Source: Oscillospiraceae bacterium | GTDB lineage: Bacteria; Bacillota; Clostridia; Oscillospirales; Oscillospiraceae | Length of the DNA: 43,386 nucleotides | Direction of reading: 5' to 3' | Assembly (NCBI GenBank): GCA_017624915.1 | Contig: JAGAMC010000003.1 | Span: 1-43,386 of the forward strand | Shown: piece after piece, positions 6,963-18,855 of the stretch | Numbering within the stretch: the first letter of the stretch is position 1 | Layout of the letters: the number at the start of each line of letters is the position of its first letter | Position numbers and translations under genes: made by a program | Notes under the pieces: generated by a model | What the model was told of the DNA's origin: nothing | The model's database searches: none | Seen by the model: the letters and a program-made list of their open reading frames with translations, nothing else

Positions 6963-7904
6963 TCACTGCAGGTTCAGAGCGCCCTTCACCTTGCCGATGA
7001 TGTGCTGACCGATGTCGTAAGAGGCATCCACGGTCTGCGCGCCGATGTGGGGGGAGACGATGAAGTTGTCGCACTGGAACAGGGGGGAATCGAAGCCCGC
7101 GCCCTCGGTCAGACCGCCGGCAGCCAGCTCGTTCTCCATCACGTCGGTGGCATAGCCGCCGATCTTACCGGCCACCAGAGCCTCGTACATATCCTGCTCG
7201 TTGACGATGCCGCCGCGGGCCATGTTCAGAACAACGGCGTCATTCTTCATCTTGCCGATGGACTCGGCGTTGAACATATTGCGGGTCTCGTCGTTCAGGG
7301 GCAGGTGGATGGTAACGAAGTCGGACACGGCGCACAGGTCGGCAATGCTCATGGAAGTGGCTTCGTTCTTCTCGAAGATCTCGGCGGGCAGGTAGGGGTC
7401 ATAGGCCACAACCTTCATGCCGAACACACGGGCGATCTCGCCCACGCGCTGGCCGATGCGGCCGAAGCCCAGAACACCCAGCGTCTTGCCGCGCAGCTCG
7501 CGGCCCACAAACTTATACTTATCCCACTGCTTGAGCACCTTGACGTCGTGGTTGGCCACCATGGTGCCGCGGGAGATGTCCAGCATCTTGGAGATGGTCA
7601 GCTCGGCAACAGCGTTGCCGTTCAGGCCGGGGGCGTTGAACACCTGGATGCCCTTTTCCTCGGCATACTTGGTGTCAACATGGTTCAGACCTACGGAGCA
7701 CACGCCGATGACCTTCAGGTTGGCGGCGGCGTCCAGAATGTCCTTGTTGATGGCGGGGTCCACGCGCATGATCAGCACGTCCACGTCGGGGATCAGGGCC
7801 TTCAGCTCGTCCTGGGTGGGCAGCATCTTGGTCTGGACCTCCATGTACATGCCCAGTTCCTCGGCAATCGCGGAATGGACGGCGTCAATGATCAGGCATT
7901 TCAT
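6963..7904 (-). CDS. D-2-hydroxyacid dehydrogenase, SerA-like
   Basis: NAD-dependent dehydrogenase of 313 aa interconverting a 2-oxoacid and a D-2-hydroxyacid. The Rossmann motif is GVLGFGRIGQRVG (about 143-155), with acidic D169 ending the second strand. The catalytic triad is visible as R230 (NMARGG), Glu at about 257-259 (ATDVMENE) and H286 (SPHIG). There is no C-terminal ACT domain, so it is a short phosphoglycerate-dehydrogenase-like or lactate-type enzyme; the substrate cannot be read from sequence. GAGGAGG precedes the ATG. It is divergent from a LysR gene across a region with a perfect palindrome, suggesting control by that regulator. A role beside the LarA-like and CoA-transferase genes is inferred. 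Confidence 0.85.
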   Translation of the reverse strand: MKCLIIDAVHSAIAEELGMYMEVQTKMLPTQDELKALIPDVDVLIMRVDPAINKDILDAAANLKVIGVCSVGLNHVDTKYAEEKGIQVFNAPGLNGNAVAELTISKMLDISRGTMVANHDVKVLKQWDKYKFVGRELRGKTLGVLGFGRIGQRVGEIARVFGMKVVAYDPYLPAEIFEKNEATSMSIADLCAVSDFVTIHLPLNDETRNMFNAESIGKMKNDAVVLNMARGGIVNEQDMYEALVAGKIGGYATDVMENELAAGGLTEGAGFDSPLFQCDNFIVSPHIGAQTVDASYDIGQHIIGKVKGALNLQ

Positions 7905-8031
7905 GGTCGTTGTTCCTCCTCATATTTTTTCATATTTTTCTGTCTGACACACTTCAGACAGATGCTTACTTTACTTTTTTAATTATGGCACAGTTTTCCT
8001 GCTTTTAACAGTACATTTTTTGTGAGGGTTG

Positions 8032-8051
8032 CCACAACCATTTGGTTGTGG
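8032..8051. promoter_or_regulatory. Perfect palindrome, candidate LysR operator
   Basis: CCACAACCA (8032-8040), TT, TGGTTGTGG (8043-8051). It lies 55 bp before the LysR start and 128 bp from the divergent dehydrogenase start, a usual position for a LysR recognition site. Confidence 0.55.
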
Positions 8052-8106
8052 TAAAATATGTTCACTTCCGACAAACTGTTGTCTTTGCCTGCAAGGAGGT
8101 CCTGCT

Positions 8107-9057
8107 ATGAATTTCCAGCATCTGCGATACTTTCTGATGGTGGCGGAGGAACTGAATATCACCCGGGCCGCCGAGCGTCTTTACATCTCCCAGCAGTCCC
8201 TGTCCAATCACATCAGCAATCTGGAACGGGAGCTGGAAACCAAGCTGTTCACCCGTTCCCCCAAGCTGTCTTTGACCTATGCCGGCGAGCAGCTGGTGGA
8301 TACCGCCACCCAGATCCTGGACCTGCACAGCCAGTACCTTGTCAAGGTGGGCGACATCAATCACCACTACATCGGCACGCTGCGGGTGGGCATCTCCCAC
8401 ACCTGCGGTCTGGCTCTGCTGCCCGATGTTCTGCCCAAGTTCCGCGCGGAGTTCCCGCAGGTGGAGTTCTCCCTGTTCGAGGGCAACTCCACCCAGATGG
8501 AGGACGACCTGTCCCACCGGCGGGTGGACCTGATCATCTGCTTCCAGCCCATTATCATGGAGGGGGCTGTGACCATTCCCCTGACCGACCAGCGGCTGAT
8601 GCTGGTGGTCCCAAAAGTTTTCACGGACCAGATCTTCGGGGCGGAGGCTGAGCAGGTACGGCAGAAATTCCTGCTTGGAGCGGATATCTCCGCGTTCCAG
8701 CAATCGCCGTTCATCCTTATCAAGCGGGGCAACCGCACCCGCAGCATCGTGGATCAGTATTTCAGCCGCTATACCTTCAAGCCCAAGCTGGTGCTGGAAA
8801 CGGAGAACACCGTCACCACCCTCGCCATGGCCCAGGCCGGCATGGGCATCACCATCTGCCCGGAGCTGTTTCTGCGTGCCCAGCCCACCTCCTCCTCCGG
8901 CGGGGGCATCGACGTGTTCCCCCTGTCCGACCCATCTACTTCCGGCAAGCTGGTGGCCGGCTACCGGCAGGACCGCTATCTGCCCCATTACGCCGAGCGG
9001 TTTGTGGAGATCACCCGGGAGGCGCTGGAAAACGCCGCCCCACTCACCACCCGATGA
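8107..9057 (+). CDS. LysR-family transcriptional regulator 1
   Basis: A 316-aa regulator. The N-terminal winged helix (1-60) shows MNFQHLRYFLMVAEELNITRAAERLYISQQSLSNHISNLERELE (written here only to mark the family signature region); an effector-binding domain follows (about 90-300). ATG at 8107 is chosen because AAGGAGGTC precedes it and the family signature begins there. An in-frame TTG at 8029 would place the operator palindrome inside the gene. It is divergent from the 2-hydroxyacid dehydrogenase, its probable target, and runs into gluQ with almost no gap. The effector is unknown. Confidence 0.88.
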   Translation: MNFQHLRYFLMVAEELNITRAAERLYISQQSLSNHISNLERELETKLFTRSPKLSLTYAGEQLVDTATQILDLHSQYLVKVGDINHHYIGTLRVGISHTCGLALLPDVLPKFRAEFPQVEFSLFEGNSTQMEDDLSHRRVDLIICFQPIIMEGAVTIPLTDQRLMLVVPKVFTDQIFGAEAEQVRQKFLLGADISAFQQSPFILIKRGNRTRSIVDQYFSRYTFKPKLVLETENTVTTLAMAQAGMGITICPELFLRAQPTSSSGGGIDVFPLSDPSTSGKLVAGYRQDRYLPHYAERFVEITREALENAAPLTTR

Positions 9058-10068: not shown

Positions 10069-10917
10069 TTACTCGTAGTCGTAGAAGCCGTGCTTGGTCT
10101 TCTTGCCCAGACGGCCCTCCTCGTACAGCTTGGAGATCATATCATAGCCGTAAGACTTCACACCGGTCTCCTCATAGCGGCGCTTGAGCACGTTGTAGCG
10201 CACGTCGATGCCGCTCATGTCGTCCAGCTCAAAGGGACCCATGGGATGGCCCAGACCCAGCTTGACGGCGGTATCCAGATCTTCCAGAGAGCACACGCCC
10301 TCGCTGACCAGGCGGTAAGCCTCCTCCTTGATGGCCTTGAGGACGTTGTTGACAATGAAGCCGTCCTCTTCCTTCTTCACCAGAGCGGGGGTCTTGCCGG
10401 TGGTGCGGCCGAACTCCATCAGCTTATCCACAGTCTCCTGAGAGGTGTGGTCGCCCTTGACCACCTCGACCAGCTTCATGACCAGAGCGGGCATGAAGTA
10501 GTGCAGGTTGGCCAGACGCTCGGGATGCTCCACAGCGCCGGCAAAGGTGGAGGACACCATAAAGCTGGAGTTGGTGGCGATGATGGCATCGGGGCGGGTC
10601 AGCTTGCTGACCTGGCTGAGCAGATCCATCTTGGCCTGCTTGTCCTCGATGATGGCCTCGATGACGATGTCGGTATCCTTGCAGGCCACGGCCAGATCGT
10701 CAGTAACGGAGAAACGGGCCTTGATGTCGGCCACCTGCTCCTCGGTCATGCGGCCCTTGGCGATACGGCCTGCCAGATACTCTTCCTTCCATGCCTCCAG
10801 GCTCTCACGGGCAGCGGGGAAGCTTTCGCACACGACCACTTCGTAGCCGTGGATGGCGGTGTTCAGGGCGATCTGACGGCCCATGGCGCCGCCGCCGATA
10901 ACGGTACACTTTTTCAT
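10069..10917 (-). CDS. hbd: 3-hydroxyacyl-CoA (3-hydroxybutyryl-CoA) dehydrogenase
   Basis: NAD(P)-dependent enzyme of 282 aa, exactly the usual bacterial Hbd length, oxidising 3-hydroxyacyl-CoA to 3-oxoacyl-CoA or the reverse. The nucleotide-binding loop is GGGAMG (8-13). Catalytic residues fit the family: S117 (NSS), H139 (LHYF), E151 (KLVEV) and N190 (GFIVNN). The ATG at 10917 is used, with GAGGTG 6 bp before it; the GTG at 10926 lies within that site. It is the last gene of a minus-strand operon (thiolase, pseudothiolase, LarA-like, hbd), 47 bp after the LarA-like gene. No crotonase or acyl-CoA dehydrogenase is nearby, so ordinary butyrate synthesis is not complete here. Confidence 0.9.
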   Translation of the reverse strand: MKKCTVIGGGAMGRQIALNTAIHGYEVVVCESFPAARESLEAWKEEYLAGRIAKGRMTEEQVADIKARFSVTDDLAVACKDTDIVIEAIIEDKQAKMDLLSQVSKLTRPDAIIATNSSFMVSSTFAGAVEHPERLANLHYFMPALVMKLVEVVKGDHTSQETVDKLMEFGRTTGKTPALVKKEEDGFIVNNVLKAIKEEAYRLVSEGVCSLEDLDTAVKLGLGHPMGPFELDDMSGIDVRYNVLKRRYEETGVKSYGYDMISKLYEEGRLGKKTKHGFYDYE

Positions 10918-10964
10918 AGTTAACACCTCATATTATGAATTTAAGGGATCTTGATTGGTACAGC

Positions 10965-12236
10965 TCAGATGTACAGGCTGTCGCACTGCCACAGACCCAG
11001 GGCCGCATTGCGAACAAAATAAATTTCTTCGCCGTTGTCCAGGGTTCTCCAGCCGGTCTGCCAGTCCTCACAGGGATAGGCGGCCAGCGCGTCCTCCACG
11101 CTCATGTAGTGGAAGCCGGCGTGCTCGATCTCGGCCTGAGGGATCTGGTCGGTGCAGTAGGTCAGACGGGTCTCCATGCTGGGGACACAGCGGATCAGGT
11201 GGCCCGCCAGAGACATGTTGCCGCTGAGCAGAGGATCGCTCTTGTACAGCTCCAGCATCTCCTCACGGGGACGGTAGCCGTACTTGCGGATGGCCTGATC
11301 GGCCAGATCGTTCTCGCCGAAGACGTGCAGGCCCGGGGCGATGACGATGATCTCGCCGCCCTCCTCCACCATCTTCATGGTGCGGTAGAAGGCCTTGTTG
11401 GTGACCCAGGTGGAGTGGTAGCTGTGGGGGTCCATCCAGACCACGCACTTCTTCACGGGCTTTTCCACGTGGGTGATGTTGACCTTCTGGCTCAGGGCCA
11501 CAGCCTGCTCGAAGCTGTCGCGCTCCTTGCCGATGAAGATGCCCTTGAAGATGTCCTCGCCGTCCTGCTGGGCCATAACGGTCAGCACGAAGGTGATGGG
11601 CAGCTTGTCCAGGAAGTTTTTCTGGATGTAGTCAAACAGACGGCGGGGAGGGGTATCCACGTTGCCCACGATACGGTGACGGCCGTGGAACACGCCGAGG
11701 AAGTGGCTGACATTGATCATCTCGCCGCCGCCGCAGCCCACCACCAGATTCTTGGTGTAGCCTGCCATACCGGCCAGCTCGTGGGGGACCACCTGACCGA
11801 TGGACAGGATGGCATCGTACTTGCCGCTGAGCAGTTCCCGGTTGACGGAGACGGTCACGTCATCCTTGAACAGGCCCTCGGACACCTCGTCCAGATAGGC
11901 GCCGGGGACAGTGCCCACCACCTCGATGGAGGTGCGGAAATCGTGGGCGATATAGGCGTCCATGGGGATGCTGTCGCCGAACATCTCACGCAGCTGCTCC
12001 TCGGTCATGGGCAGGTGGGTACCAAGAGCGGGCATGACCTTCACGCTGACGCCCTTTTGGGTCAGCTGCTCATAGTAGTGGGCGGTGATGAGACCCGCAC
12101 CGGAGTGGGAACGGGTAATGTCGGGGGGCAGCAGCAGGACACTGGACCAGTTGTTTTCCGCCATGTGGCGGTCCAGCAGTGCGGTGATCTGGTCCTTGGG
12201 GATAAACTGCTGCTGATTCTGAAGGGAATAGTTCAT
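10965..12236 (-). CDS. LarA-like nickel-pincer 2-hydroxyacid racemase/epimerase
   Basis: A 423-aa LarA/DUF2088-family protein. LarA racemises lactate with a nickel-pincer nucleotide covalently held by Lys; homologues act on other 2-hydroxyacids. Visible: PPDITRSHSG (38-46), GTHLPMTEEQL (72-82), H98, and PHELAG...GYTK with H152 and K162. H178 follows 16 residues after the Lys. The His-Lys-His spacing (10, 16) equals that of LarA H174, K184 and H200. Start ATG 12236 with AAAGGAA upstream; TTG at 12257 is the alternative. larB, larC and larE, needed for the cofactor, are not in the window. The operon neighbours are CoA-ester enzymes, so the substrate may not be lactate. Confidence 0.8.
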   Translation of the reverse strand: MNYSLQNQQQFIPKDQITALLDRHMAENNWSSVLLLPPDITRSHSGAGLITAHYYEQLTQKGVSVKVMPALGTHLPMTEEQLREMFGDSIPMDAYIAHDFRTSIEVVGTVPGAYLDEVSEGLFKDDVTVSVNRELLSGKYDAILSIGQVVPHELAGMAGYTKNLVVGCGGGEMINVSHFLGVFHGRHRIVGNVDTPPRRLFDYIQKNFLDKLPITFVLTVMAQQDGEDIFKGIFIGKERDSFEQAVALSQKVNITHVEKPVKKCVVWMDPHSYHSTWVTNKAFYRTMKMVEEGGEIIVIAPGLHVFGENDLADQAIRKYGYRPREEMLELYKSDPLLSGNMSLAGHLIRCVPSMETRLTYCTDQIPQAEIEHAGFHYMSVEDALAAYPCEDWQTGWRTLDNGEEIYFVRNAALGLWQCDSLYI

Positions 12237-12257: not shown

Positions 12258-13361
12258 TTACTTTTCGACCAGAGCGGCCATGCCCTGACCGCCGGCGGTA
12301 TAGGTGCACAGAACGCCCTTCTGGCCCTCTTTCAGGCCGGCCACCAGACGCATGAGCATGATGATGCCCTCGGCGCCATCGTTCTTGCCGTAGGCCAGAG
12401 CGCCGCCCATGGGGTTGACCTGAGCGCTGCCGCCCAGCGTCTTCATGGTGTCGACAACATCCTGAGCGCTGTTCTCAATGACCTCGATCACGGCGATGTC
12501 GTCCATGGTCAGGCCCTTGTTCTTCAGAAGCTTAGCCACGGCGGCAGCACCGGCGGTCTGCTGCTGCTTGGGGTCGCAGCCGGACACGGCAAAGCCGGAA
12601 ATGGCGGCCTGCGCCTTCACGCCCAACTCCCTGGCCTTGTCCTCGCTCATGAGCATGGTCACGGCGGCACCGTCAGCATAGGGAGCCAGAGCCTTCTCGG
12701 CAGAAGCGGAAGCCACCAGTTCATCCTTATCCACGGTGATGGTGCCCTTCTTGCGCACCTCGTAGGAGATGGGCAGGATCTGGCCAGCGCAGTCGGCGGC
12801 CTGAGCCTTGGCGATGCTCTGCTGGGCATACTCCACAGCCTCAGCGCTCAGCTCCTTGCCGTGGGCCAGCTCGTACTGCTCCAGACGGCTCATGGCCTCG
12901 GGCTGGGTGCACTGCTCAGCCTCCTCGATGGAGTCGATGAAGGTGCGGTGCTGGGGATAGAAGTGGTTGCGGGCGTCGCGCAGCACGAAGGGCGCTGCGG
13001 AATAGCTGTCCGCGCCGCCGGCCACGCAGATGTCCTCGTTGCCGGTGGCGATGAGATAGTAGCAGTTGCGCAGAGCCTGCAGGGCAGAGCCGCTGACACT
13101 CTGAACGGTATAGCCGGGAACTTCAACGGGCAGCTCCGCCTTCAGCCAGGCGTAGTGACCGATGTTGTTGGGCATGGTGGAGGGGTGAGCCTGACCGAAC
13201 ACCACCTGATCCACAGCGTTGGCGTCCACGCCGGTACGCTCCAGCAGGGACAGCAGGATCTTGGCAGAGAAGTCGGAGGAGATGAAAGGAGCAAGGCCCG
13301 CGCCGGGCTTGCCCCAGGCGGTACGGACGCTGTCGGCGATAATGACTTTCTTCATTTCCAT
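12258..13361 (-). CDS. Thiolase-fold protein lacking all catalytic residues
   Basis: A thiolase homologue of 367 aa by sequence pattern, including RTAWGK near the start, VPGYTVQ and a GGQGMA end. Aligned by eye to the next gene's product, the nucleophilic Cys is Ser (S90 in QSVSGSALQ). The NEAFA loop reads IENSAQ, the GHP His is Lys (ALAYGKNDGAEG), and the C-terminal Cys is lost (CTYTAGGQG). Thiolysis or Claisen condensation by the normal mechanism is therefore not expected. The frame is intact and the start overlaps the upstream thiolase stop (TGATG), so it is probably a structural or binding partner, for example in a heteromer. ATG at 13355 is an alternative start. LarA-like follows 21 bp later. 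Confidence 0.82.
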   Translation of the reverse strand: MEMKKVIIADSVRTAWGKPGAGLAPFISSDFSAKILLSLLERTGVDANAVDQVVFGQAHPSTMPNNIGHYAWLKAELPVEVPGYTVQSVSGSALQALRNCYYLIATGNEDICVAGGADSYSAAPFVLRDARNHFYPQHRTFIDSIEEAEQCTQPEAMSRLEQYELAHGKELSAEAVEYAQQSIAKAQAADCAGQILPISYEVRKKGTITVDKDELVASASAEKALAPYADGAAVTMLMSEDKARELGVKAQAAISGFAVSGCDPKQQQTAGAAAVAKLLKNKGLTMDDIAVIEVIENSAQDVVDTMKTLGGSAQVNPMGGALAYGKNDGAEGIIMLMRLVAGLKEGQKGVLCTYTAGGQGMAALVEK

Positions 13362-14566
13362 CAACCTTCCTTTCTGCACTGCTCAAAGATGGAGGCAAAG
13401 CCCATGCCGCCGCCGATGCACATGGTGACCATGGCATAGCGCACGTCGGGGCGCTGCTTCAGCTCATAGAACAGCTTGGTGGTCAGGATGCCGCCGGTAG
13501 CGGCCAGAGGATGACCCAGAGAGATACCGCTGCCGTTGACATTGGTGCGCTCCCAGATGGTGTCAAAGGTCTCGGTGTCGGACCACTTGACCCACTCGCG
13601 CATGACGGCCACGGACTGGGCGGCAAAGGCCTCGTTGAGCTCGATCAGACCGATGTCCTCGATCTTCAGACCGGCCTTGGCAAGGGCCTCCCGGGAGGCC
13701 TCGATGGGACCGACCCCCATGATCTTGGGCTCCAGACCCACCACGGCGGAGGACACATGACGCAGGTAGTAGTCGTAACCCAGTTCGTCGGCCTTCTCAC
13801 GGCTCATAACCAGTACGGCGGAAGCGCCATCGTTACGGCCGGAGGAGTTGCCGGCGGTGACGCAGCCGTCCTTCTTGAAGGCGGGCTTCATGGCGGCCAG
13901 CTTCTCGTAGGTGGTGGAGCGGGGATGCTCGTCGGTGTCGAAGTCGCCCACGGGGACGATCTGCTCCTTGAACTTGCCCTCGTCAATGGCCTTGCGGGCG
14001 CGCTCCTGGCTGCCCAGAGCAAATTTGTCCTGGATCTCGCGCTCGATACCGTACATGTCGGCCACATTCTCGGCGGTCAGACCCATGGGCAGCACGCCGA
14101 AGATCTCCTCAGGGGAGTTGCCGGCAGTACCTTCCAGAATGTTGTCCATCAGGGTGACATTCTTGGTGCCCAGACCGCCGCGGGCGTTGCGCAGGTAGTA
14201 GCAGGACTTGGTCATGTTCTCCGCGCCGCCGGCCAGAATGATGTCCGCGTCGCCGCAGGCGATGATCTGGCTGGCATCATAGATGGACTGAGAGCCGGAT
14301 GAGCAGGCGCGCTGCAGGGTGTAGCCGGGCACGCTGTCGGGCAGGCCGGCCTCCAGCCAGCCGTAGCGGGCCAGATTCATGGGGTATGTATTCATCTTCA
14401 CGTGGCCGAAGATCACTTCGTCCACCTGATCTGCCGTGATCTTGGAGCGCTCAAGCACTTCCTTCATCACGATGGCGGCAAGCTCCTGCTCGTCATACTC
14501 GCTCAGCGCGCCATTCATTTTTCCGATGGCGGTTCGCACGCAATCGGTAATTACTGCATCACGCAT
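13361..14566 (-). CDS. Acetyl-CoA acetyltransferase (thiolase), catalytic
   Basis: A complete thiolase of 401 aa, condensing or cleaving 3-oxoacyl-CoA. All catalytic elements are present: nucleophile C88 (QRACSSGSQ), N311 (NEAFA), H352 (LGHPLAATG) and C383 (MCIGGGMG). It is the first gene of the operon, with GGAGGG before the ATG, and the promoter region is shared with the divergent LysR gene. The stop codon overlaps the start of the thiolase-like pseudoenzyme. Short-chain specificity is usual for this family but cannot be proved here. Confidence 0.9.
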   Translation of the reverse strand: MRDAVITDCVRTAIGKMNGALSEYDEQELAAIVMKEVLERSKITADQVDEVIFGHVKMNTYPMNLARYGWLEAGLPDSVPGYTLQRACSSGSQSIYDASQIIACGDADIILAGGAENMTKSCYYLRNARGGLGTKNVTLMDNILEGTAGNSPEEIFGVLPMGLTAENVADMYGIEREIQDKFALGSQERARKAIDEGKFKEQIVPVGDFDTDEHPRSTTYEKLAAMKPAFKKDGCVTAGNSSGRNDGASAVLVMSREKADELGYDYYLRHVSSAVVGLEPKIMGVGPIEASREALAKAGLKIEDIGLIELNEAFAAQSVAVMREWVKWSDTETFDTIWERTNVNGSGISLGHPLAATGGILTTKLFYELKQRPDVRYAMVTMCIGGGMGFASIFEQCRKEG

Positions 14567-14691: not shown

Positions 14692-14713
14692 GATAGTGGG
14701 ATGGAGGTGTCCT

Positions 14714-15601
14714 ATGATCACCCTGCTTCAACTGGATTATTTCCGCAAGCTTGCGGCCACCGAACATATCACCCAGACCGCCAAGGAGCTCTACATCTCC
14801 CAGACGGCGCTGAGCAGCATGATCATCGGTCTGGAGAAGGAACTGGGCATTCAGCTGTTTGACCGCTCCAAGCGCTCCATCCGTCTGAACGAGGCAGGCA
14901 AGCTGTATCTGCAGTATGTCAACGATGTGTTTACCGCTCTGGACAACGGACGCTCCGCCCTGCAGGAGCTGACCGACTCGGCAGAAAAACAGGTAAGCAT
15001 CGCCGTGGGCTCGTCCCAGGTGTGGCTGCCCATGATCCGCGACTTCCGCAAGCAATACCCCGAGTGCTCCATCAAGCAGCACAACAACACGCTGGAGGAG
15101 CTCATCGACGCCCTGCACTCCATGACAACGGATTTCGTCATTGCCAGCACGGACGAGATCCCCGATGCCGGGCTGGAGCACATTTTTTTAAAAAAAGACA
15201 GCGTATACCTGTGTGTACCAAAAAGCCATCGTCTGGCCGGGCGTGAGTCGGTCTGGCTGCGGGAACTGGAGGACGAGGCCTATATCGACCTGCCTGCAGG
15301 AACGCCCTGGCGGGAGTACTGCAGCCACCTGTTCCAGCGGGCCGGGGTAAACATCCGCACGGTGCTGGAGTGCGACTACTCCATCCGTGCCGCTCTGGTG
15401 GACTCCGAGTTCGGCGTGGCTCTTACCTCCGCCTCCGCCTACGAGGTAGATCTGCTCAGGCCCAACTGCTACATCCCCATCGCCGATGAATTTGCCTGCC
15501 GGGATATGGCCCTTTTCTGGAACCCGAGAAAGTACATGTCCAGAGCAGCGCAAAGTTTCCGTCAGTTCTGTGTCTCCTATTGGGAGAAAAATCAGGTGTA
15601 A
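14714..15601 (+). CDS. LysR-family transcriptional regulator 2
   Basis: A 295-aa LysR regulator. The winged helix spans about 1-60, with ITQTAKELYISQTALSS as the recognition region, and a substrate-binding domain follows (about 88-290). ATG 14714 is chosen because GGAGGTG lies just before it. It is divergent from the thiolase operon, the classical arrangement for the regulator of that operon. The shared CATAAGTTTAAACT motif suggests it also controls the CoA-transferase/ilvD intergenic region. A strong terminator ends it. Confidence 0.88.
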   Translation: MITLLQLDYFRKLAATEHITQTAKELYISQTALSSMIIGLEKELGIQLFDRSKRSIRLNEAGKLYLQYVNDVFTALDNGRSALQELTDSAEKQVSIAVGSSQVWLPMIRDFRKQYPECSIKQHNNTLEELIDALHSMTTDFVIASTDEIPDAGLEHIFLKKDSVYLCVPKSHRLAGRESVWLRELEDEAYIDLPAGTPWREYCSHLFQRAGVNIRTVLECDYSIRAALVDSEFGVALTSASAYEVDLLRPNCYIPIADEFACRDMALFWNPRKYMSRAAQSFRQFCVSYWEKNQV

Positions 15602-15607
15602 TAAACA

Positions 15608-15643
15608 GGAAATGCCCTGCGGCTTGCGCCGCAGGGCATTTCC
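15608..15643. terminator. Terminator between LysR2 and the CoA-transferase gene
   Basis: Perfect 16-bp inverted repeat, GGAAATGCCCTGCGGC / GCCGCAGGGCATTTCC, with loop TTGC, between two convergent genes. T runs are short. Confidence 0.8.
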
Positions 15644-15683
15644 TCATGTAAGTCAAAGAGGGAATCGGTTTGCGTTCGGGCGA

Positions 15684-16901
15684 TCAGCTCAGAGCGCCCT
15701 TTTCGATGATAGCATCGATCTCGGCTTCGGAATAGCCCAGATCAGCCAGCACCTGACGGTTGTGCTCACCGTAGAGGACGGGAGCACCGAACTTCAGCGC
15801 ACCCTGGGAGCCCAGACGCACGGGGCAGGTGGGCAGCACACGCTCGGCACCGTTGCCGCACTTATAGGTCTGCAGGTACTGGTTGGCCCAGGCCTGCTCG
15901 TCCTTGAGCACGTCGGCAAAGTGGAACAGACGGCCGCTGACGATGTCCAGGTCGCTGAAGATCTTCAGCCACTCGGCAGAGGACTTCTTGATGAATGCCT
16001 TCTCGTAGATGGGGACCACCACATCGGCCTTTTCCATAAGCTGGGCCATGTTGGTGATGCCCATGTCGGCCATGATCTCAGTCACGCCGATGGCATCAAA
16101 GAACTTGTCGGCATAGCGCTCGTACTCGAAGATGGTGCAGCGCACCCACTCGCCGTCGGAGCAGCGGTAGGCCAGGTTGGTGGGCATGCCGGAATTGCGC
16201 TTCTCGGGATACTCGTGGTTGTAGGGATCCTCAGCCATGACGATACAGCCGCCGGACATCCAGATACCGGCGTTGTACAGGGACATGGTAACAAAGTCGC
16301 CCTTGCCGGTGCGCTCGCGCTGATACAGGGCAGTCATGACACCGCCGAACAGGGTGGTGCCGGACAGCACGTCACCCATGGCGTAGCGGGAGTTGGTGGG
16401 GTAGCTGCCGGGAGCATCAAAGCTCATGTCGGCAGAGAAGCCGGAGCGGGACCAGAAAGCGATGTTGTCAAAGCCGGGAGCGTTGCAGTCGGGGCCCTCG
16501 TAGCCGTAGCCGGTCAGGGTGGCGTAGATCAGGCGGGGGAAGCGGTCCTTGATGGACTCGTAATCCACGCCCAGCTTCACCAGAGACTGGTTGCGGGTGT
16601 TGGTGATCAAAATGTCGGCACCCTCCAGCAGCTTGAAAAAGATTTCCTTGCCTTCCTCACTCTTCATGTTCAGGGAGATAGACTTCTTGCCCACGTTGAA
16701 GATGTCAAACAGGGGGTTCTCCTCGGGGCCGGTCTTGGTATGGCCCATAGAAGTGGCACGCCATGCGTCGCCGCCGCGGCCCTCGATCTTGATGACCTCA
16801 GCGCCCAGATCGGCGGCGATGCGGCCCACGATGGGGGCGGCAACATAGTTGGCCAGCTCGATCAGACGAATGCCCTCAAGGGGCTTTTTGTTCTCGCTCA
16901 T
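15684..16901 (-). CDS. CaiB/BaiF (type III) CoA-transferase
   Basis: A 405-aa family III CoA-transferase that moves CoA between carboxylic acids through aspartyl-acyl intermediates. The N-terminal LEGIRLIELANYVAAPIVGRIAADLGAEVIKIE segment (not quoted in full elsewhere) is characteristic, and D177 in AMGDVLSG fits the catalytic Asp of formyl-CoA transferase. Length and family resemble FldA/HadA, which activate aryl- or alkyl-2-hydroxyacids. However, no radical 2-hydroxyacyl-CoA dehydratase (BC subunits) or activator is in the window. AGGAGG precedes the ATG. It is divergent from ilvD with the shared motif at 17045. It could supply the CoA ester used by the thiolase/Hbd operon. Confidence 0.87.
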   Translation of the reverse strand: MSENKKPLEGIRLIELANYVAAPIVGRIAADLGAEVIKIEGRGGDAWRATSMGHTKTGPEENPLFDIFNVGKKSISLNMKSEEGKEIFFKLLEGADILITNTRNQSLVKLGVDYESIKDRFPRLIYATLTGYGYEGPDCNAPGFDNIAFWSRSGFSADMSFDAPGSYPTNSRYAMGDVLSGTTLFGGVMTALYQRERTGKGDFVTMSLYNAGIWMSGGCIVMAEDPYNHEYPEKRNSGMPTNLAYRCSDGEWVRCTIFEYERYADKFFDAIGVTEIMADMGITNMAQLMEKADVVVPIYEKAFIKKSSAEWLKIFSDLDIVSGRLFHFADVLKDEQAWANQYLQTYKCGNGAERVLPTCPVRLGSQGALKFGAPVLYGEHNRQVLADLGYSEAEIDAIIEKGALS

Positions 16902-17194: not shown

Positions 17195-18855
17195 ATGCGT
17201 TCCGACGTCATCAAAAAAGGCATCCCCGCCGCCCCCAACCGCTCCCTGCTCTACGCTCTGGGCTATACCGCAGAGGAGCTGGAGCGCCCCCTGATCGGCG
17301 TGGTCTGTTCCTATAACGAAATCGTCCCCGGCCACATGAATCTGGACAAGATCGCCGAGGCCGTCAAGGCCGGCATCCGTGCCGCCGGCGGAACCCCCGT
17401 GGAGTTCCCCGCCATCGCCGTATGTGACGGTATCGCCATGGGCCACGTGGGCATGAAGTATTCTCTGGTCACCCGTGACCTCATCGCCGACTCCACCGAG
17501 GCCATGGCCATGGCCCATCAGTTCGACGGTCTGGTCATGATCCCCAACTGCGACAAGAACGTGCCCGGCCTGCTCATGGCCGCCGCCCGTGTCAATGTGC
17601 CCACCATCTTTGTCTCCGGCGGCCCCATGCTGGCCGGAACCCTGAACAGCGGCAAGCGCACCTGCCTGAGCCACATGTTTGAGGCGGTGGGTGCCTACTA
17701 CGCCGACAAGCTGGACGAGGCGGGCGTGGAGGACTATGAGAACAACGCCTGCCCCACCTGCGGCAGCTGCTCCGGCATGTATACCGCTAACTCCATGAAC
17801 TGCCTGACCGAGGCCATCGGCATGGGCCTGGGCGGCAACGGCACCATCCCCGCCGTCTATTCCGCCCGCCTGCGCCTTGCAAAGCACGCGGGCATGAAGA
17901 TCATGGAGCTGGTGGAAAAGGACATCCGCCCCCGGGACATCATGACCGAGGCCGCCTTCCACAACGCGGAGACCATCGACATGGCGCTGGGCTGCTCCAC
18001 CAACACCATGCTCCATCTGCCCGCCATCGCCCACGAGTGCGGCATCGAGCTGAGCTTTGACATGGCAAACGAGATCTCCGACAAGACCCCCAACCTGTGC
18101 CATCTGGCCCCCGCGGGTGATACTTATATGGAGGATCTGGACCGGGCCGGCGGCGTATATGCCGTTATGGCGGAGTTGGCCAGGAAGGGCCTGATCGACA
18201 CCAGCCTGATCACCTGCACCGGCAAAACCATTGCCGAAAACCTTGAGGGCGTTGTCAACCGCAACCCCGAGGTCATCCGTCCCATCGAGAATCCCTATAC
18301 TACCACCGGCGGCATCGCCGTGCTCAAGGGCAATCTGGCCCCCAACGGCTGCGTGGTCAAGCAGTCCGCCGTAGCCCCTGAGATGATGGAGCACGAGGGC
18401 CCCGCCCGTGTGTTCAACTCCGAAGAGGAGGCCATTGAAGCCATCTACGCCGGCAAAATCGTGGCCGGTGATGTGGTGGTCATCCGCTACGAGGGCCCCA
18501 AGGCGGCCCCGGCATGCGCGAGATGCTCAACCCCACCTCCGCCATTGCGGGCATGGGTCTTGACAAGGATGTGGCTCTGATCACTGACGGCCGTTTCTCC
18601 GGCGCCACCCGCGGTGCCTCCATCGGCCACGTCAGTCCCGAGGCGGCCTCCGGCGGCAGCATCGGTCTGGTGGAGGAGGGCGATATCATCGCCATCAACA
18701 TCCCCGCCCACACCATCCAGCTCAAGGTCAGCGACGAGGAGCTGGCGGCCCGCCGGGCCAAGTGGGTGTGCCCCGAGCCCAAGATCAAGACCGGTTATCT
18801 TGCCCGCTATGCCAAGCTGGTGTCCTCCGCCGACCGGGGCGCGATTCTGGAATAA
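17195..18855 (+). pseudogene. ilvD: Dihydroxyacid dehydratase, single-base frameshift
   Basis: The dehydratase converts 2,3-dihydroxyacids to 2-oxoacids in branched-chain amino-acid synthesis, using an Fe-S cluster. The first frame runs to a stop at 18580 (461 codons). The proper sequence leaves it at 18502-18503, where AAGGCGGCC replaces the expected AAGGGCGGCC (missing G). The rest continues in another frame as [14 protein letters not shown]... to 18855. Corrected length would be about 553 aa, normal for IlvD. Cluster motifs NCDKN (C119) and CPTCGSCSG (C189, C192) are intact. A sequencing or assembly error is as likely as a real mutation, since the downstream third is fully conserved. Confidence 0.85.

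Follow-up and report, generated by a model that had tools for sequence, protein, structure and literature searches.

What does a thiolase-fold protein without thiolase catalytic residues do when its gene directly follows that of an intact thiolase? The question is raised by a gene pair in a 43,386-nucleotide stretch of DNA from an Oscillospiraceae bacterium (the window), in which a classical thiolase, here called T, is followed on the minus strand by a pseudothiolase, P, across a TGATG junction with the sequence GGAAGGTTGATGGAAATGAAG (Table 1). The two proteins are 30% identical (E 2e-42), and P matches both Pfam thiolase domains, Thiolase_N at 2.7e-28 (99.5 bits, cut-off 26.4) and Thiolase_C at 1.1e-17 (64.2 bits, cut-off 27). 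Among the best 25 of its 37 NCBIfam matches, P falls under the curated cut-off of every model. Its best match in the PDB is an ordinary thiolase, 8gqj (129.6 bits), and the best-matching chains of either protein (the best 60 of 89 for P and the best 60 of 103 for T) are, by name, thiolases, acetyl-CoA acetyl- or acyltransferases or trifunctional-enzyme subunits. Because P matches both Pfam domains, shares this identity with T and recurs with it in 15 other genomes, the observation goes beyond chance. The original prediction gave the coordinates, reading frames and residues of T and P correctly, and its view that P has kept the signatures of the thiolase fold agrees with the recognition of both domains. 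The exact TGA/ATG overlap of the two genes is present in the window and in loci L001, L003, L008 and L009 and absent from L004, L005, L006, L007 and L010, and is thus not universal; a second in-frame ATG of P, two codons on, marks the start of the MKK common to most close relatives.

Table 1. Features of the window around the T-P gene pair
Feature	Position	Strand	Details
D-2-hydroxyacid dehydrogenase	6966-7904	minus	class as in L007
Second LysR gene	8104-9057	plus	
3-Hydroxyacyl-CoA dehydrogenase family protein	10069..10926	minus	Pfam and NCBIfam matches
LarA-like protein (nickel-dependent putative hexonate epimerase)	10965..12236	minus	NF052594, 518.6 bits, cut-off 500
P, pseudothiolase, 367 aa	12258..13361	minus	TIGR01930 207 bits, below cut-off 240.55
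P Y354, second-Cys place (TYTAGG)	12300..12302	minus	Y/F/N/A in 13 readable P rows
P K326, GHP-His place (GKNDG)	12384..12386	minus	K/R/L/N in 13 readable P rows; His never
P I295, NEAF-Asn place, rewritten loop VIENSA	12477..12479	minus	I/M/A/N in 13 readable P rows
P residues 214-230, shortened where T has the pantetheine-loop segment	12674..12722	minus	row alignment
P S90, nucleophile-Cys place (QSVSGS)	13092..13094	minus	S/T/A/C in 14 P rows
T, classical thiolase, 401 aa	13361..14566	minus	C88 (RACSSG), N311 (NEAF), H352 (GHP), C383 (CIGGG); TIGR01930 417.5 bits, cut-off 240.55
Divergent LysR-family regulator	14696..15601	plus	longest frame, start uncertain; Pfam match
17-pair terminator-like hairpin	15607-15644	minus	just 3' of the CoA-transferase gene
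Family III CoA-transferase	15684..16901	minus	PF02515, 1.9e-81
Dihydroxy-acid dehydratase (IlvD)	17195-18580 and onward	plus	C-terminal part in another frame

Relatives of P have had the same catalytic places rewritten in differing ways. At the nucleophile place, the 14 aligned P rows have Ser (eight), Thr (three), Ala (two) or Cys (one, L042), the Thr of L033 and the Ala of L034 each being followed by an Asp one residue later. The 13 rows that are readable further on have Ile (seven), Met (three), Ala (two) or Asn (one, L043) at the Asn place, Lys (nine), Arg (two), Leu (one) or Asn (one) at the His place and Tyr (ten), Phe, Asn or Ala (one each) at the second-Cys place; the nearest Cys to this last place in the window's P is C352, two residues before it. 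A further P piece, from L027, has Arg at the His place. The Glu after the Asn place is retained in 13 of 13 rows. Among T rows, Asn, His and the second Cys are present in 15 of 15 and the first Cys in all 14 that are readable there. The full Cys-Asn-His-Cys set is absent from every one of the 14 aligned P rows. That all four catalytic positions have been lost, as originally predicted, is right for the window's P. In its family the His is gone wherever this place is readable, but L042, past an N gap, has Cys at the second-Cys place as well (with Arg at the His place) and L043 keeps the Asn. The same two relatives bear on the proposal that homologs with their catalytic residues in place would mark the window's copy as a decayed gene: single residues survive in them, but no homolog with the full set was found. 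The losses were accordingly piecemeal. The L042 relative (7723-8676, minus strand), with its nucleophile-place Cys and Arg for His, may represent a stage in the evolution of a pseudoenzyme.

The changes in P extend to the region that would hold CoA. A VTAGNxSG-type segment is present in all 15 T rows and in all 15 rows of ordinary thiolases, a set that excludes the thiolases of L050 and L052, and is missing from all 14 P rows. An MGxTAEN segment is missing from 13 of the 14, L043 having a version of it. A motif alignment made here assigns these segments to the pantetheine loop and the start of Lalpha2 of human T2 thiolase, which line the pantetheine tunnel according to the available part of the T2 study (PMC6790690).

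P is rare, yet spread over several families of one phylum. A scan of genome contigs found 10 loci with a P protein (63-92% identity), whose titles name Oscillospiraceae (eight) and Lachnospiraceae (two), six of them with sheep, goat or yak gut. P was found in 7 of 64 genomes of the window's genus and in one genome each of the family (300 genomes), order (394) and class (391) searches, the two other matches in the order sample being ordinary thiolases. In a second genus, that of G710, 4 of 16 genomes have P and three other matches are ordinary thiolases; the family of G710 gave 2 of 299 and a phylum sample 3 of 398. These samples contain the window's own genome or that of G710, and six of the seven P genomes in the window's genus are either the window's or among those of L001-L005 and L008, as their coordinates agree; others overlap the contig scan too. 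With each genome counted once (the genomes of L001-L005 and L008 recur as L017-L022, and L023-L026 and L028 are repeats too), P occurs in 16 genomes: those of the window, L001-L010, L033, L034, L041, L042 and L043. The searches stayed within one phylum and applied strict E-value limits (1e-40 to 1e-66), at which copies as diverged as that of L043 may escape the order, window-genus, family and class searches. Relatives examined on plasmids are ordinary thiolases, part of them shown to stand alone.

In all 16 genomes, T lies directly upstream of P on the same strand, with T partial at contig ends in L002 and L041, P partial in L009 and L010 and the P of L042 interrupted by the N gap. Since these genomes had been found through P, we also searched for T independently. 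In the window's genus, the T search alone found 6 of 64 genomes, all of which are among the seven P genomes; in the remaining one, a contig edge leaves the last 118 residues of T. In the second genus, T matches above 850 bits occur in 4 of 16 genomes, the same four that have P, and three further matches (375-381 bits) belong to a different thiolase, whose operon includes a CoA-transferase and a dehydrogenase and lacks P. Over the 80 genomes of the two genera, searched separately for each protein, co-occurrence is complete, with one T cut by a contig end. Ordinary thiolases are arranged differently: 14 distinct genes with about 0.9 kb of flank or more, a count that leaves out L058-L060 (too little flank) and takes L029/L057, L035/L056 and L049/L055 as the same genes, each counted once, all stand alone. 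A conserved pairing of the kind that the original prediction asked to be sought elsewhere exists in 15 genomes besides the window's, with losses that vary between relatives. Sister operons in the same Lachnospiraceae genus (L056 1170-5213 and L035-L037) combine a CoA-transferase and a dehydrogenase with a single ordinary thiolase, lack P and are natural controls; by sequence reading, that of L056 also has a short-chain dehydrogenase/reductase (SDR).

P is under purifying selection and is not decaying. Ten pairwise comparisons give dN/dS of 0.067-0.173 for P, nine for T give 0.028-0.096, and the 11 P genes translated for this test contain no stop codon. A tree of 44 rows separates T (15 rows, 98/93), P (14 rows, 98/95) and the ordinary thiolases (15 rows, 95/88) from one another; it excludes the P proteins of L009 and L010, which contig ends truncate, as well as the L027 piece, and carries a long-branch warning for the P of L043. 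When that row is removed, T (100/99) and P (100/100) are still separate clades and the ordinary thiolases are no longer one group; as the sole P row, it falls outside T and outside the ordinary thiolases. These separate clades give no support to an origin of P inside the T clade of today. The branching order is identical in T and P (L043, L042, L041, then the rest), and pairwise distances in the two proteins correlate with r = 0.966 over 13 genomes, a value that none of 5000 permutations reached; P changes about 2.3 times as fast as T. Shared species history accounts for part of this correlation, and plain operon inheritance would also produce both strict pairing and matching distances.

The distribution of conservation within P points to the part of the molecule that selection has kept. 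Across eight diverse P rows, conservation is highest in the 20-residue stretches 115-134 (0.73), 82-101 (0.69), 316-335 (0.69) and 60-79 (0.66); the value for P as a whole is 0.50, and that of the loop domain, its least conserved part, is 0.38. The best-conserved stretches of T are instead those with the pantetheine loop, NEAF, CxG and GHP. According to the available portion of the human T2 study, interface residues of that enzyme include N93, G100, Q101, K124, H144, Q145 and N158 (PMC6790690); because the alignment of T and P is gap-free before about residue 140, we carried these places to P by their distance from the nucleophile Cys, which by our own arithmetic puts them at 57, 64, 65, 88, 108, 109 and 122. 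This mapping covers seven residues and leaves out two more in the loop domain. Places 64, 65, 88 and 122 belong to the three N-terminal conserved stretches and the other three are beside them, and a paper on the thiolase-like protein TLP1, as far as its text was available, likewise places the dimer interface at Nbeta3 and the preceding loop (PMC3406046). Three of the four best stretches of P therefore hold dimer-interface places, which supports, without proving, the view that P still dimerizes by the normal thiolase face. The fourth, 316-335, lies at the vestigial GHP loop and is conserved as well as the interface stretches, which would be compatible with a function of P's own pocket.

A selected, catalytically dead protein that always accompanies T fits a heteromer in which P is a structural partner, and T and P are probably the two subunits of one heteromeric thiolase, with P a kept pseudoenzyme. 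The roles follow from P having neither the chemistry nor the CoA loop, being selected, being best conserved on the dimer side and being inherited with T. We infer a 1:1 complex, in which T, with its complete Cys-Asn-His-Cys site and CoA-binding loop domain, would cleave or form a 3-oxoacyl-CoA. P descends from a thiolase; its His, most of the remaining catalytic residues and the segment of the pantetheine loop are gone, and it would be kept as a pseudoenzyme. The subunits would meet through the ordinary thiolase dimer face, giving a T-P dimer or (TP)2 instead of a homodimer. P may stabilize T and shape the dimer-side wall of its pocket, speculatively for an unusual, probably hydroxylated, acyl-CoA.

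The main rival, which we consider unlikely, is that P is an enzyme with a new chemistry on the thiolase fold that works beside T, its ENSA and G[KR]xDG loops holding new catalytic residues. ENSA is invariant in 11 P rows, and the 316-335 stretch that includes G[KR]xDG is among the best conserved of P. Thiolase-fold aldolases do exist: the accessible text on the steroid side-chain aldolases Sal and Ltp2 describes enzymes with Y-D-H/C-F/Y at the NEAF place that bind DUF35 domains (PMC12329534), and these share with P a thiolase fold with rewritten catalytic residues and work in a complex. However, the nucleophile place of P is Ser, Thr, Ala or Cys and the His place Lys, Arg, Leu or Asn, L041 has GLNEG, L043 has NEIS and GNP, and the pantetheine loop is missing from all 14 aligned rows. 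The catalytic Tyr of Sal and Ltp2 (YDHF/YDCY) and the rest of the aldolase motif are absent from the NEAF place in the 13 readable P rows, and a Pfam scan of the window's operon proteins and the neighbors in L004, L006, L007, L009 and L010 found no DUF35 partner.

Considerably less probable is a CoA-binding or substrate-channelling partner, as first proposed for P. Although the thiolase fold and the adjoining genes for CoA-ester enzymes would suit such a role, CoA binding by P is unlikely because the pantetheine-loop segment is missing from all 14 aligned rows; the MGxTAEN segment is nearly always gone as well, and the loop domain is the least conserved part of P. Slightly more doubtful still is that P is a metabolite-binding sensor or regulator and no stable subunit of T: its vestigial pocket does contain conserved non-thiolase residues, but P strictly tracks one thiolase clade while the other operon genes differ between loci. 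Finally, the notion of a decaying duplicate, suggested by the piecemeal loss of catalytic residues and the faster change of P, is refuted for the window's clade by dN/dS and merits almost no credence, given also the stop-free frames, the long invariant stretches and the presence of P in several families.

The neighbors of the heteromer candidate include CoA-ester enzymes and vary between loci. In the window, T, P, the LarA-like gene and the 3-hydroxyacyl-CoA dehydrogenase gene run one way, with the divergent LysR gene and the CoA-transferase gene upstream. Homologs are found at at least 11 of 16 loci for the dehydrogenase (at least 41% identity), at least 9 of 16 for the CoA-transferase (at least 67%) and at least 6 of 16 for the LarA-like protein (at least 63%); these are lower bounds because several loci end at contig edges. 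SDR reductases lie near the pair in L006, L009 and L010, and L007 has a D-2-hydroxyacid dehydrogenase and a TRAP transporter gene. By sequence reading alone, L033 and L034 have a TctC-like protein and L043 a type I CoA-transferase and a symporter. The window itself has a D-2-hydroxyacid dehydrogenase gene beside a second LysR gene. The hairpin suggests that the genes from T to the dehydrogenase form a separate transcript, in a region where terminator-like matches are no commoner than in shuffles. The frame break in IlvD reflects either an assembly error or a broken gene. The LarA-like protein is only just over the NF052594 cut-off, and its substrate might reveal the pathway; for LarA group 18, with which NF052594 is equated by its family name, the available text presents hexonate epimerization as hypothesized, not shown (PMC7583248). 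A hydroxy acid is a reasonable guess as the pathway substrate. It is a bolder and, on balance, unlikely extension that an obligate heteromeric CoA thiolase, its live site remodeled by the dead subunit, would let anaerobic gut bacteria cleave polyhydroxylated acids in a beta-oxidation-like manner, for example as 2-hydroxy-3-oxoacyl-CoA derived from sugar acids, and the LarA-like epimerase would set the stereochemistry.

The general description of thiolases is of dimers or tetramers whose subunits are alike. Pairs of an active thiolase-fold subunit and a paralog without catalytic residues are familiar from the ketosynthase/chain length factor of type II polyketide synthases and from PqsBC, and chain length factors reshape the pocket wall for their ketosynthases. 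T-P resembles these in pairing an active with a dead paralog; they belong to ketosynthase branches and are known complexes, whereas T-P would be a putative complex of a classical CoA thiolase with its dead twin.

Other known systems share single features with the pair. TLP1 of Mycobacterium smegmatis has, like P, a thiolase fold and none of the thiolase catalytic set; in the available text, it is monomeric and 15% identical to the Zoogloea ramigera thiolase and has a YSCF motif, an extra C-terminal domain and a CoA groove (PMC3406046). P differs in lacking the YSCF motif and the extra domain, in its lost pantetheine loop and in its pairing with T; with IENS or similar at the NEAF place and 367 residues ending with the thiolase C-terminal domain, it does not belong to the TLPs. 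In anaerobic toluene degradation, as far as the consulted text goes, BbsCD is an alcohol dehydrogenase with inactive pseudoenzyme subunits and BbsAB a thiolase with a Zn-finger subunit (PMC10818641). The former shares with T-P a dead paralogous subunit in an anaerobic CoA-ester pathway but is another enzyme class, and the latter is likewise a two-subunit thiolase, although its helper is no thiolase paralog. Dead paralogous subunits and two-subunit thiolases are thus each known separately; among the open-licence papers searched, partly by best matches only, we found no classical thiolase with a dead thiolase twin.

On the best reading, the T-P heteromer would be kin in principle to the ketosynthase/chain length factor, and its module would also comprise a CoA-transferase, a 3-hydroxyacyl-CoA dehydrogenase and, at some loci, a LarA-like epimerase. 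Such a conserved pair of a live and a dead thiolase would show the same division of labor as a separate case within CoA metabolism. Because some relatives of P keep single catalytic residues, the family displays stages of pseudoenzyme formation, and the order of the losses is testable. Genes of the P type are easily annotated as acetyltransferases, which they very probably are not, and the T-P module points to an uncharacterized acid-degrading module of gut bacteria. Overall, our analysis suggests that some gut and related anaerobic bacteria have a two-part thiolase, the dead half of which supports or tunes the working half.
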